Part shown: one piece after another, positions 5,037-11,894 of the stretch
Layout: each line of letters begins with the position of its first letter
Position numbering within the stretch: position 1 is the stretch's first letter
Origin: an uncultured Bacteroidales bacterium
GTDB taxonomy: Bacteria > Bacteroidota > Bacteroidia > Bacteroidales > UBA4417
DNA length: 36,396 bases
NCBI GenBank assembly: GCA_903946925.1
Contig: CAJAXK010000090.1
Span: 1-36,396 of the forward strand
Reading direction: 5' to 3'
Notes under the pieces: model-generated
Databases searched by the model: none
What the model was told of the DNA's origin: nothing
The model's input: the letters and a program-made list of their open reading frames with translations, nothing else
Program-made: the position numbers and the translations under genes

Positions 5037-5092
5037 GATTGCGGGTTGGGGATTGCGGATTGCGGATTGCGGATTTCAGATTTCAGATTGCG
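5037..5092. repeat. Heptamer tandem array, consensus GATTGCG (8 units)
   Basis: Eight consecutive 7-base units read GATTGCG, GGTTGGG, GATTGCG three times, GATTTCA twice, GATTGCG. The array lies between the divergent miaA and dnaX genes. A looser stretch with CCATTAAC, TCAATAAC and TAATAACC follows at 5101-5124. The remaining part of the gap 4971-5389 contains the dnaX promoter candidate; the 80-codon frame across it has no recognisable features. Confidence 0.85.
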
Positions 5093-5302
5093 GACAATAA
5101 CCATTAACTCAATAACTAATAACCATTTGCGGGTTGTGGATTTTTCTTAACCACCAAAACCTACCCAAAAGAAATCAGGTATTTTTTAAAGGCGGTTCTA
5201 TTTTTCCAGTTGTGGTTTCCCTGCATATTCTAAAAAGACATCGATCAAATTTTGCCCGAATCCTTTTTATTAACAAAACTATCCGGTTTAACCGAATTGT
5301 TA

Positions 5303-7213: not shown

Positions 7214-7322
7214 TTGATTGTTAATGGTTAATGGAAAATGGTTAATAGTTGATGGTAAATGGAAAATGGTTGATAGAAAATGGCTCATAGGGGGGGAATA
7301 GTTGTTGGAAGATGGTTGTCGG
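7214..7322 (+). repeat. Heptamer tandem array, consensus TTAATGG/AAAATGG, after dnaX
   Basis: From 7214 to 7290 eleven units fit a strict period of 7: TTGATTG, TTAATGG twice, AAAATGG, TTAATAG, TTGATGG, TAAATGG, AAAATGG, TTGATAG, AAAATGG, CTCATAG. After a short G run the pattern resumes at 7302-7322 as TTGTTGG, AAGATGG, TTGTCGG. It fills nearly the whole gap between dnaX and the next gene. It is read in the dnaX sense strand as TTAATGG. Confidence 0.9.
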
Positions 7323-8374: not shown

Positions 8375-8935
8375 ATGAAAAGAAATTTAGCTCAGTTTAT
8401 ACTGAAGTTTTTTGGTTGGAAAGTAATAATAAATATGCCCCCTGGTACCAAAAAATGTGTGGTTATGATGGCCCCACACACCAGCAACTGGGATTTTATA
8501 ATTGGCTGGTTTGGATATATGTCATTGGGCATAGACTCGAAGTATTTGGTAAAAAAAGAAGCATTTGTTTTTCCCTTTGCCGGATTTTTAAAGGCAGTTG
8601 GAGCTATACCGGTTGACCGTAAAGCAAGTACTAATATTGTGCTTCAAGTAGGCGAAATGTTTAACAACAGCGAAACGCTCTTTATTACAATAACCCCCGA
8701 AGGAACACGAAGCCTAAGCCAAAACTGGAAACGTGGTTTTTATTATATTGCCGAAAATGCAAAAGTCCCCATCGCTTTCGGGTTCCTCGATTATAAATTG
8801 AAAATAGGTGGTATCGGGGATACCCTCATGCCAACCGGTAATTATGATGAGGATTTAAAAAAGATTGAAGCCTTCTATTCGGACAAAACAGCGAAGTATC
8901 CTGAGAAATTTAACCTAAGCAGGGGGAAGGGTTGA
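8375..8935 (+). CDS. PlsC-like lysophospholipid acyltransferase
   Basis: Membrane-associated acyltransferase of the 1-acyl-glycerol-3-phosphate acyltransferase superfamily, 186 residues from ATG 8375. Block I is the HX4D motif in APHTSNWDF (His35), and block III is TPEGTRS. The size is short compared with PlsC (about 240) but normal for the compact Bacteroidota homologues. A longer frame from a TTG at 8318 would overlap the kinase stop region and is less likely. The exact acceptor (glycerolipid, ornithine lipid or other) is not shown. The stop codon TGA is inside the first unit of a heptamer array. Confidence 0.88.
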   Translation: MKRNLAQFILKFFGWKVIINMPPGTKKCVVMMAPHTSNWDFIIGWFGYMSLGIDSKYLVKKEAFVFPFAGFLKAVGAIPVDRKASTNIVLQVGEMFNNSETLFITITPEGTRSLSQNWKRGFYYIAENAKVPIAFGFLDYKLKIGGIGDTLMPTGNYDEDLKKIEAFYSDKTAKYPEKFNLSRGKG

Positions 8936-9066
8936 TGGTTATTTGTTATTGGTTATTGGTTGATGGAAAACAGAAAATGGTTAATGGGAAATCCGTTCCC
9001 TTTGACAAGCTCAGGGTAAAAATGGAAAATAGTTATTGAAAATAGTTGGTGGAAAATGGTTAATGA
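8932..9066 (+). repeat. Heptamer tandem array, consensus TTATTGG/TTAATGG/AAAATGG
   Basis: Units run from 8932: TTGATGG, TTATTTG, TTATTGG twice, TTGATGG, AAAACAG, AAAATGG, TTAATGG, then a 31-base interruption holding a different repeat, then AAAATGG (9019), AAAATAG, TTATTGA, a 6-base AAATAG, TTGGTGG, AAAATGG, TTAATGA. The TGA stop of the acyltransferase gene is bases 2-4 of the first unit. In the gap 8936-9255 nothing recognisable follows the array. Confidence 0.88.
8998..9016. repeat. CCCTTTGACAAGCTCAGGG dispersed repeat inside the array
   Basis: This 19-base word has partly palindromic ends (CCCT...AGGG) and differs by one base from a sequence (CCCTTCGACAAGCTCAGGG) that I recall as a very widespread intergenic repeat in bacteria. 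It interrupts the heptamer array near its middle. No target duplication could be defined. Confidence 0.55.
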
Positions 9067-9255
9067 GTTACTGGATAATTAGAAGCAGAAAATGTTCAGA
9101 TTGTAAACAGAATAGAATATAGTAAACTGAACTACAGCGCATTTTAAGTCAAAGATTGAACAAAACACAAAATAAATTGGAATTGGATTTCAGATTTCGC
9201 GAATAATTTAAACTCCAAAAAAAACAAAATCAACAATATCAATACCGCTTACAAC

Positions 9256-10134
9256 ATGCAATTGCTTACGCCAACCCATTTTGCTGATTACGAACTTATT
9301 GATTCGGGCAGTTTCCAGAAGCTTGAACGCTTTGGTAAATATGTGCTTATCCGTCCTGAGCCGCAAGCAATTTGGAACCCTTCTTTGGGTGAAAACGAGT
9401 GGGATAAAATGGCATCGGCAACTTTCAAATTAGAGAAAAACGATACCGAAAAAGGGCGCTGGATACTAAAAAAAGGCATGCCCGAACAGTGGCGCATCAA
9501 CTATTCGCACAAACAAATGAATTTTAACGTGCGGCTTGGTTTAACCTCTTTCAGGCATATAGGCGTTTTCCCGGAACAAGCACCAAACTGGGATTTTATT
9601 TTCGACACCATAACAAGCTCAAAAACATCTTCTTCCAAAATCCTTAACCTTTTCGCATATACTGGGGCTGCTTCCCTTGCTGCTCGTGCTGCGGGTGCAG
9701 AAGTTGTTCACGTTGATTCTGTTAAACCAGTAATTAGTTGGGCGAGGGAAAACATGGAAAGCAGCCAACTCACCGATATACGTTGGGTAGTGGAAGATGC
9801 CTTGAAATTTGTGCAACGCGAAGTCCGGCGCGGGAACACTTATTCCGGAATTATCCTCGATCCCCCTGCTTATGGGAGAGGCGCCGATGGCGAAAAATGG
9901 ATATTAGACGATAACCTGAACGAAATGATTATGCTGTGCAGCAAGTTGCTGTTACCAAAAGATAGCTTCCTGATATTAAATATGTATTCAATAGGATTCT
10001 CGGCCATGGTAGCCAACAACCTGATAAACAGTTATTTCAAGAGAGGTGATAAAAACGATTTTGGCGAGCTTTACCTTGCCGACAAATTTGGTAAAAATCT
10101 TCCACTTGGAACCTATCTGCGTTTCAGCCGTTGA
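9256..10134 (+). CDS. Class I SAM-dependent methyltransferase, RlmI/RlmK-like
   Basis: Predicted cytosolic nucleic-acid methyltransferase of 292 residues. The SAM-binding motif I is LNLFAYTGAASLAARAAGA (about residues 132-150), followed by VVHVDSVKPVISWARENM (motif II), a VVEDALKFV segment (motif III) and ILDPPAYGRG (motif IV, the DPP(A/S)(F/Y) form typical of rRNA m5C or related enzymes). The C-terminal part carries LILNMYSIGFS. It lacks the PUA domain of RlmI, so a tRNA or rRNA target is only an inference. The ATG at 9256 gives a complete N-terminal domain. It converges on the T9SS plug gene, and repeats begin 12 bases after the stop. Confidence 0.88.
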   Translation: MQLLTPTHFADYELIDSGSFQKLERFGKYVLIRPEPQAIWNPSLGENEWDKMASATFKLEKNDTEKGRWILKKGMPEQWRINYSHKQMNFNVRLGLTSFRHIGVFPEQAPNWDFIFDTITSSKTSSSKILNLFAYTGAASLAARAAGAEVVHVDSVKPVISWARENMESSQLTDIRWVVEDALKFVQREVRRGNTYSGIILDPPAYGRGADGEKWILDDNLNEMIMLCSKLLLPKDSFLILNMYSIGFSAMVANNLINSYFKRGDKNDFGELYLADKFGKNLPLGTYLRFSR

Positions 10135-10146
10135 GAGGAAGTGTTT

Positions 10147-10174
10147 GGGTGCCGGATGCCGGGTGCCAAGTGCC
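10147..10174. repeat. Four heptamers, consensus GGGTGCC
   Basis: Units are GGGTGCC, GGATGCC, GGGTGCC, AAGTGCC, starting 12 bases after the methyltransferase stop. They are followed after one base by the octamer array, so two periodicities lie back to back. Confidence 0.75.
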
Positions 10175-10175
10175 C

Positions 10176-10573
10176 TCATTACCACATTATCACATCCCCA
10201 AATTTTGAGTCCACTCCGAAAACTCTAAAAAAAGAAAACCACGGAGACACGGAGGGCACAGAGGCACACAGAGTGTTGTTAATCAGAACTATAAACTTTG
10301 TGAACTTAGCGAAGCGATATCACGAATTCCTTTAAAATAAGCAATTATGAGTAAACTTAGAGATTTAGTGCCTTAGTGGCAAAAAAAGGCCTTTCGGAGT
10401 GGACTCAATTTTCAACTTTTCAAATTAACACATTTTCAAATTATCGCATTAACACATTAGCACATTAACACATTAACACATTATCTCATTCCCACATTTT
10501 CAAATTTTCAAATTATCAAATTAACACATTATCGCATTAACACATAAACACATTAGCACATTAGCACATTAAT
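10176..10573 (-). repeat. Octamer tandem array, consensus ACATTAAC (TTAATGTG on minus strand), split by a MITE
   Basis: The left part is TCATTACC, ACATTATC, ACATCCCC and most of AAATTTTC (10176-10206). The right part continues from 10406 with 21 units of exactly 8 bases, for example AAATTAAC, ACATTTTC, AAATTATC, GCATTAAC, ACATTAGC, to ACATTAAT at 10566-10573. The stop codon of the minus-strand plug gene (10569-10571) is inside the last unit. The 200-base element between the two parts is described separately. Together these fill the 434-base gap 10135-10568. Confidence 0.9.
10207..10406. mobile_element. MITE-like element copy 1 (GAGTCC...GGACTC ends)
   Basis: Ends are 17-base perfect inverted repeats when two flanking bases per side are counted (10205-10221 and 10392-10408, TTGAGTCCACTCCGAAA). 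The six bases AATTTT occur directly on both sides (10201-10206 and 10407-10412), as expected for a target duplication. Removing 10207-10412 restores the octamer AAATTTTC and the phase of the surrounding array. The inside has CCACGGAGACACGGAGG in the left half and, on the opposite strand, GCCACTAAGGCACTAAATC in the right half, so the element is a loose long palindrome. It encodes no transposase; it would need one supplied in trans. Confidence 0.72.
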
Positions 10574-11894
10574 TCTCAAAATTTCCTGTCGCTATCAGTT
10601 CGTCGTACATTTCGCCCCTTGAGCGGTGATAAACCAAAATGGTATAGCTATTCCGGGTTTGCGAATGGTTACCTTCAACCCAAGTTGCATCACCTGTTTT
10701 GGAGTTATTTGGAAGCATCACATACAAATAATTGTAATAACCTTGCTTGAAAAGGATACTTGCTTCATATCCTTTTCGGGGATAATTGTATTGCATTTTA
10801 TTTTCGGGAGTATATTGCCAGCAATTGAAACCACCAGCCACATAGAGGTTTCCTTCAACGATCGGTGCATCGTAGGCAAGAAAAAACTTCACCATGGCAT
10901 ATTCGCCATAGTTCGAAACGGTAGGCTCATCATCGGTTTTGAGCAGGAATTTCCCGTTAATGTCGCCTTCAAAGGAATATTCCTTATAAGTACGCTTTTC
11001 TGTTTCCCAAAGCTTTACATAAAACATGGTGTCATCGAAAGTGATTTCGCGCACTTTTTCCGAAATAAATTTTAGGCTTTTGATATCAAACCGCCTGAAT
11101 TCGTTTACCCCATCAAACTGGTTTGTTCCATTGTCGAACGAATAATCGAATACCCCATTATGGACCATATAAGGTTTAAGGTTAGTAAGAGCATTATCGG
11201 TACGCCAGTTTTGCATTATTACCACTTTTATGTCCTGATAAGGCGAGTCGATTCGGTAACCCGTGGTATTGATGGTAAAATCAACCTCCTGACGGGTTTC
11301 ATAATCTTCAGAAGTCCCAGCCCTGGCAACACTCGCGATTACCGAAACTTTTGGGTCAACAACATAAAATCGGCGGGTAAACGCATTGATTTCATCGCCT
11401 TTTGCATTTATGCTATAAACCCTAACAACATAATTGCCTGATTTTTTAATAGTAAAAAACCTATTTGGAAACTGAAATGAGTAATGTGTGTAGGGCGTTC
11501 GTGTATTAAACGAAGATTCAAATGTTTCGACCTGTCCAACTTCCTGTCCATCAATATATTCATTGGCCCAAATATCGGATTTACCCCAATTTGCAGTGCA
11601 ATGCTGTATTTGATAATAGTATTGGACAAAGCTTCCGCGAAGGTCGTCGAAAGCAGCATAAAAAAGTTCGTCAGAATTTAAAGTTATGATTGGGTCGGCC
11701 AATTCGAAACCCACCCTCGAAAGCTCAACCGACTGGATATAATGCTGATAAACATGGTTATCATTGCGTAGATAGTTGTTAGAATAGAAATCGGAGGAGT
11801 CGGGATTGCTGCTAAATGAAATTCCGTAAGAAAATTTAATAAAAGCAAGAAGCAGCAGGATCATTAATCCTGTCGTATTGATTTTAAGTCTCAT
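10569..11894 (-). CDS. Type IX secretion system plug protein (DUF5103)
   Basis: 441 residues with a Sec signal peptide (hydrophobic run LMILLLLAFIKFSYG). Conserved DUF5103 features include LNSDELFYAAFDDLRG, YYYQIQHCTANW, SYQF-type SFQFPN, and a C-terminal VAGGFNCWQY segment resembling a carbohydrate-binding/AMPK-like beta fold. In Flavobacterium johnsoniae the homologue, called Plug, closes the periplasmic side of the SprA translocon, so this protein should act at the outer membrane with SprA. No other core T9SS gene is adjacent, which is normal because the system is scattered in the genome. A promoter candidate lies just upstream. The stop codon overlaps the last unit of the octamer array. 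Confidence 0.88.
   Translation of the reverse strand: MRLKINTTGLMILLLLAFIKFSYGISFSSNPDSSDFYSNNYLRNDNHVYQHYIQSVELSRVGFELADPIITLNSDELFYAAFDDLRGSFVQYYYQIQHCTANWGKSDIWANEYIDGQEVGQVETFESSFNTRTPYTHYSFQFPNRFFTIKKSGNYVVRVYSINAKGDEINAFTRRFYVVDPKVSVIASVARAGTSEDYETRQEVDFTINTTGYRIDSPYQDIKVVIMQNWRTDNALTNLKPYMVHNGVFDYSFDNGTNQFDGVNEFRRFDIKSLKFISEKVREITFDDTMFYVKLWETEKRTYKEYSFEGDINGKFLLKTDDEPTVSNYGEYAMVKFFLAYDAPIVEGNLYVAGGFNCWQYTPENKMQYNYPRKGYEASILFKQGYYNYLYVMLPNNSKTGDATWVEGNHSQTRNSYTILVYHRSRGEMYDELIATGNFEN

Follow-up and report, generated by a model that had tools for sequence, protein, structure and literature searches.

BrickBuilt, MITE464 and the ISPg elements of Porphyromonas gingivalis, which are related to IS5-type insertion sequences and likewise belong to the Bacteroidales, are the closest described counterparts of the element reported here (PMC4596501, cited from excerpts of its text). 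As characterized in those excerpts, the P. gingivalis MITEs resemble it in being short and non-autonomous, in having ends that begin with GAG and that they share with IS5-type insertion sequences, and in their association with tandem repeats. They differ in the end sequence itself, which is GAGACTGTTGCA-like in P. gingivalis and GAGTCCACTCCGAAA here; in that BrickBuilt contains its minisatellite whereas the present MITE sits inside an array; in their target duplications, described as irregular and found in few copies, compared with 6–7 bp and the consensus AANNTT here; and in copy number, with 10–20 per MITE type against 431 end matches in the present genome. The consulted part of PMC5678879 describes some members of the IS1182 family as targeting palindromes, which may be compared with the palindromic AANNTT target; however, the IS1182 member IS1272 is reported there to replace an inverted repeat without a duplication, whereas duplications are present here.

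Short tandem arrays with a fixed orientation to genes have also been described. For the quadruplex-forming heptamers GGGAATC of Xanthomonas and GGGGA(C/T)T of Nostoc, the available portion of PMC4692102 places the G-rich strand in sense orientation at most 50 bp from a stop codon and in antisense orientation within 50 bp upstream of an ORF, and the TAACTGA arrays of Beggiatoaceae mostly end just upstream of start codons (PMC4679880, likewise in excerpt). The octamer arrays described below are intergenic, short and tandem like those of Xanthomonas, Nostoc and Beggiatoaceae, and they follow the same orientation rule as the G-rich heptamers of the first two. They differ, however, in their period of 8, in their degenerate set of words, in a unit consensus, AATGTGNN, that holds no GGG tract, and in a contact with stop codons within 12 nt, unlike the heptamer arrays compared; because AATGTGNN lacks a GGG tract, the quadruplex explanation of the heptamers is not transferable to them. 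Among open-licence PMC papers none was found that deals with this MITE or with these octamer arrays, and the literature searched yielded no explanation of array polarity.

Here we analyze a 36,396-nucleotide stretch of DNA from an uncultured Bacteroidales bacterium, referred to in its entirety as the window. The reading that we favor, with a probability of roughly 0.9, is that a non-autonomous MITE was moved in trans by an IS1182/IS5-related transposase into a unit of an octamer array.

Results

A MITE inside an octamer array

The features of the locus are as follows.

9256–10134, plus strand: left neighbour, SAM-dependent methyltransferase gene (PF10672)
10149–10174, plus strand: heptamer-like run GTGCCGG ATGCCGG GTGCCAA GTGCC, lying between the left gene and the octamer array and recognized by eye
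10175–10206, plus strand: left part of the octamer array, 4 units, CTCATTAC CACATTAT CACATCCC CAAATTTT
10201–10206, no strand: left copy of the target duplication AATTTT
10207–10406, plus strand: MITE, 200 bp, from direct reading, blastn and comparison of copies
10207–10221, plus strand: left terminal inverted repeat GAGTCCACTCCGAAA, exact, 15 bp
10392–10406, minus strand: right terminal inverted repeat, exact, 15 bp
10407–10412, no strand: right copy of the target duplication AATTTT
10413–10572, plus strand: right part of the octamer array, 20 units, the last of which holds TTA, the stop codon of the minus-strand gene
10569–11894, minus strand: right neighbour, type 9 secretion (T9SS) plug protein gene (PF17116), its stop codon abutted by the array

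An earlier note on this DNA had proposed a 200-base element with GAGTCC and GGACTC ends and a 6-bp duplication, AATTTT. Both hold: GAGTCC begins at 10207 and GGACTC finishes at 10406, other copies share these borders with the window copy, and the two AATTTT copies lie directly outside them, a duplication that is backed by family-wide duplications and by matching insertion sequences (see below). The left end is of the IRR type (AAAACTCT in the window copy, AAAACCCT in the family consensus) and the right end of the IRL type (consensus AAAAGTCTTTT, read inwards). No ORF of at least 80 aa in the ORF list of the window overlaps the element, and Rfam gave no match at E 0.1 within 9500–11200. Folded as DNA, the ends of the element pair (z −2.3; 4 of 200 shuffles equally good), which is weak evidence for structure beyond the paired ends.

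The MITE and one AATTTT copy together amount to 206 bp. When these are taken out, 21 of 21 units that follow the strict pattern share one phase, whereas removal of 200 or 207 bp leaves the phases of the two sides unjoined; the chance of such a restoration at one site alone is 1/8. The array comprises 24 units in total, 4 on the left and 20 on the right, including three degenerate ones counted by eye, and just three units besides the duplicated one stand to the left of the MITE. The units are degenerate CAMATTNN words and not the strict octamers of the earlier note, which had restored the register correctly. Its further claim that the insertion came after the array had formed stands in part: all that the register establishes is the presence of some array where the MITE went in, and it cannot date the full array, because whole-unit gain or loss preserves it, and the 20-unit right side may have grown after the insertion. 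An in-register tandem array can verify a target duplication. With two mismatches allowed, four-unit octamer windows occur 862 times in this genome, compared with 4 for a reversed control pattern.

A family with a defined target

The genome that holds the window (G000; 6.17 Mb in 498 contigs) contains many copies. The element, used as a blastn query, returned 43 matches, of which 40 are long, and the 431 matches to the 15-base end (at most 2 mismatches) compare with 6 for a control. Forty contigs taken as an unselected sample (373,517 bases, with every contig cut at 20 kb) contain 17 elements of 109–246 bp bounded by terminal inverted repeats (TIRs), corresponding to roughly 280 per genome. The 39 other long copies are on average 87.5% identical to the window copy, and their range of 81–93% indicates that the family did not arise in one recent burst.

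Duplications were analyzed in the 40 long copies, i.e., the window copy and 39 fetched ones. Exact duplications of 6 bp (n = 15) or 7 bp (n = 4) flank 19 of them, compared with a mean of 1.1 and a maximum of 6 when the flanks are randomly re-paired, and one copy has a 10-bp direct repeat; an exact 6–7 bp duplication is absent in 21 of the 40. The target consensus over the 40 copies is AANNTT. The duplication is therefore less elusive than the earlier note, which considered it hard to define, had supposed. These numbers also bear on the possibility that AATTTT is mere array sequence and that the element entered by recombination, with no duplication of its target. Many array units do contain AATTTT; however, copies outside arrays carry other duplications of 6–7 bp, e.g., AGCATT, AACCAT and AATCATT, insertion sequences with the same ends are also flanked by such duplications, and the re-pairing result speaks against this explanation, which we consider very improbable.

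The element is thus short and free of a transposase, has dispersed copies with common TIRs and a target duplication of constant length, and has autonomous relatives with the same ends in other genomes, one of them a congener. The MITE family is new but its kind is ordinary; what is unusual is how completely it is anchored: its ends, target and duplication length, and a probable donor with the same asymmetric subterminal bases, are all available within an uncultured Bacteroidales genus.

Pairs of CCACnnAG/CACnnAG nonamers occur 16 times within TIR-bounded elements of the sample and never outside them. In one 150-bp MITE type the two runs of nonamers together form an inverted repeat, scoring 28 of 36 in L122 and 26 in L124, compared with a shuffled maximum of 22 in both cases. 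A corresponding inner inverted repeat was sought in the window copy and set aside, the score of 18 being equal to the shuffled maximum of 18 and that of the 200-bp consensus (19) lying below its maximum of 20; in the window copy the repeat is eroded to the shuffled level. Very short elements with the same kind of ends were seen in two other genomes, one of 62 bp (L050, 2026–2087, G003) and one of 94 bp (L064, 1986–2079, G001).

Other arrays and MITE-free orthologous sites

In the same genome, locus L047 has a MITE with an AATTTT duplication inside a second octamer array, and removal of the element plus 6 bp again restores the register, with two left-hand units beyond the duplicated one. At three further loci, L043, L046 and L263, the MITE is located at the left edge of an octamer array and the opposite side is without array. 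L263 has a 7-bp duplication, ACATTTT, and is uninformative on the register because the duplicated unit is the sole one on its left.

Orthologues of the left-hand gene are present in 14 of the 16 genomes of the genus, and the spacer was examined in nine besides the window genome. Two of these, G002 (protein 94% identical) and G011, lack the MITE but have about six octamer units at the right-hand gene's stop codon; neither array nor MITE was found at the orthologous spacer in the remaining seven. The search for empty sites suggested by the earlier note thus returned uninterrupted, shorter arrays, and the target unit itself was not seen among the units of G002 and G011. Because two congeners have a MITE-free array at the same gene end, the array there is older than the MITE or independent of it.

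The converse order, in which the MITE came first, or entered a single AAATTTTC-like site, and the array grew alongside it later by slippage, would account for the one-sided arrays of L043, L046 and L263 and for the 24 units in G000 compared with about six in the two congeners, and phase cannot rule out growth after insertion, since growth by whole units preserves the register. However, the window and L047 have units in a single register on both sides of the MITE, the two congeners already possess the array in the absence of the MITE, and copies outside arrays show the same 6–7 bp duplications, which makes this order improbable. Irrespective of the phase argument, the MITE, its borders, the 6-bp duplication and an insertion into an octamer array already present are supported by the family-wide duplications, the MITE-free arrays of congeners and the matching insertion-sequence family.

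Four of the 40 long copies (window, L043, L046 and L047) lie in or beside an octamer array, although arrays make up 0.2% of the 373,517-base sample, and one array of the congener G002 (L067) holds three MITEs, which raises the question of whether octamer arrays are preferred landing sites. In the unselected sample, however, 0 of the 17 TIR-bounded elements lies within 20 bp of an array; moreover, the window copy was pre-selected, the AAATTTTC units merely fit the AANNTT target, and the second and third copies in L067 look tandem-duplicated, with a common mutated end. We regard such a preference as unlikely. The three MITEs of L067 (745–1313) follow each other within the array, AATTTT flanking each, and because of the mutated end shared by the second and third, the simplest reading is that these two reflect a tandem duplication of the MITE plus 14 bp.

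Probable donor insertion sequences

An unpaired end in another genome, G037, led to a 554-aa transposase with a DUF772 domain above the Pfam cut-off; its best NCBIfam match is IS1182, under the cut-off of that model. The congener G011 encodes a relative with 48% identity, the readable end of which is GATTCTCCTCTGATAACCCT while the other end is off the contig. Relatives at E 1e-50 are found in 12 of 393 genomes of the order. A scan of named genomes, based on the transposase alignment, gave 78 loci, including that of G011 itself (CAIXAQ010000892.1, uncultured Bacteroidales bacterium). Of these, 67 were examined, 11 partial matches being left out, and 48 could be scored with both ends and flanks, the other 19 having an end that is missing, poor or at a contig edge; 47 of the 48 qualified. 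They are 1739–2005 bp long (~1.8 kb) with the consensus end GAGTCCACTCCGAAAA. Exact duplications of 6–7 bp flank 21 of the 47, compared with a mean of 1.0 and a maximum of 5 after re-pairing, and 26 have none; the target consensus is A-A/T-N-N-T/A-T. The transposase with the same ends and 6-bp duplications that the earlier note proposed to look for thus exists in this ~1.8-kb family.

The subterminal bases of these elements are asymmetric. On the side of the transposase start, GT follows the 16-base end in 44 of 47, and on the opposite side CCC follows the end in 11 of 47, in the elements nearest to the G011 protein. In the MITE consensus one end bears CCC and the other GTC, one of each subterminal kind, which indicates that the MITE retains the polarity of the insertion sequence. 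The donor is probably among these ~1.8-kb insertion sequences with an IS1182/IS5-related transposase.

The assignment of the transposase is bounded by profile scores. All nine transposases tested match NF033551 (IS1182) at E 1e-5 or better as their best NCBIfam match, and all nine contain DUF772; however, the two proteins with recorded scores reach 104.4 and 114 bits against a curated cut-off of 270. D161, D355 and E461 (L077 numbering) are invariant in the nine sequences and may be the DDE catalytic triad.

Relatives of the transposase were not found in G000, G002, G003 or G013, including searches of G000 at E 1e-10 and with a profile at 1e-3, whereas the G011 relative, serving as positive control for the former search, was found in the same run. 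Repeated elements of 1.8 kb often drop out of short-read assemblies, so the absence of the donor is weak evidence. G000 itself has a single DUF772 match, a broken and unrelated gene that lacks such ends. Across the genus, DUF772 gave 9 matches in 6 of 16 genomes; with the exception of the related G011 protein, their ends differ (CAGACTGTC, AGGGTCTGCTG, AGTCGATCC and others), and they were rejected as donors. We infer that a transposase of the IS1182/IS5-related family moved the window MITE and that its donor was lost from, or is missing in, the assembly.

In the proposed insertion history, the DDE transposase of an IS1182/IS5-related insertion sequence would recognize the GAGTCCACTCCGAAA ends in trans and insert the MITE at an AANNTT target, in this case AATTTT within one AAATTTTC unit of the octamer array between the convergent genes, and staggered cutting would duplicate the 6 bp AATTTT.

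Among the close transposase relatives, as judged by record titles, are L154 (Spirochaetales, 71% identity), L157 (Melioribacter, 69%), L171 (Tepidanaerobacteraceae, 47%) and L208 (Deltaproteobacteria, 37%); these may reflect either transfer or contaminated bins.

Polarity of octamer arrays at gene ends

The observation of the MITE is correct and has good support; what deserves more work is the direction in which the arrays run. Arrays of the same octamer words occur in 23 of 60 relatives and in 10 of 45 genera. For the window genome, 40 fetched array places and the window gave 49 arrays, all read with the CAMATTNN strand from left to right, and gene ends in the counts are those of simple ORFs of at least 100 aa rather than curated calls. 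In 24 cases the right neighbour turns its stop codon towards the array, which ends at most 12 nt from that stop in 19 and overlaps it by 15–23 nt in 3. Where the start faces the array (25 cases), the array abuts the gene in 4, ends 13–100 nt away in 13 and further away in 7, and overlaps it in 1. At the left end, contact with a gene was seen in 0 of 46.

The 48 arrays from seven other genomes behave similarly: right ends that face a stop codon abut it in 16 of 22 cases and overlap in 1, those facing a start abut it in 3 of 23, and left ends abut a gene in 3 of 42. In the pooled set, 35 of 46 stop codons that face the forward end of the CAMATT strand are abutted by the array, and at the opposite end a gene is abutted in 3 of 88 cases. 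Stop-facing cases were contributed by six of the eight genomes, with none in G054 and G052. The polarity with respect to stop codons is shared by several families within a single order.

That the fixed positions of the unit are conserved is partly built in, the arrays having been found with that pattern; this is less so for the variable dinucleotide, which is correlated with the next three bases (TT then CAA, 123; AT then CGC, 49; AG then CAC, 27).

In the window, the last octamer unit provides the stop codon of the T9SS plug gene (10569–10571). The encoded protein ends in TGNFEN in G000, and seven of the eight orthologues found end two or three residues later, with GK, GKK or RK. Either the array crept inwards or 6 bp were deleted.

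A directional process at the ends of coding sequences that lays down the octamer arrays and other degenerate arrays of 7–8 bp, by a general and quadruplex-independent mechanism, is conceivable, and we put it forward tentatively as an idea that may well prove wrong. The C-rich strand would run 5′ to 3′ into a gene in every case, meeting either the stop codon, if that gene faces the array, or the start region, if it is co-directional, and the array would halt where coding constraint starts; strand-biased 3′-directed slippage and template re-copying are candidate mechanisms. The polarity would be independent of quadruplexes because the unit consensus has no GGG or G-quadruplex tract. The Xanthomonas, Nostoc and Beggiatoaceae reports then join the present data in one question, namely what builds one-direction arrays at gene ends, and, if arrays do grow in one direction, MITEs like the window copy would be time stamps within them.

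Other degenerate arrays of 7–8 bp, and also of 14, 16 and 21 bp, were seen in the sample (L110–L149; e.g., GATTGCG, TTGGTTA, CAATCCG and GTTCAATT), and those of 7–8 bp often, though not always, start at a stop codon, which is an uncounted impression. Further degenerate arrays lie in the window at 5037–5094, 7217–7288 and 8927–9079.
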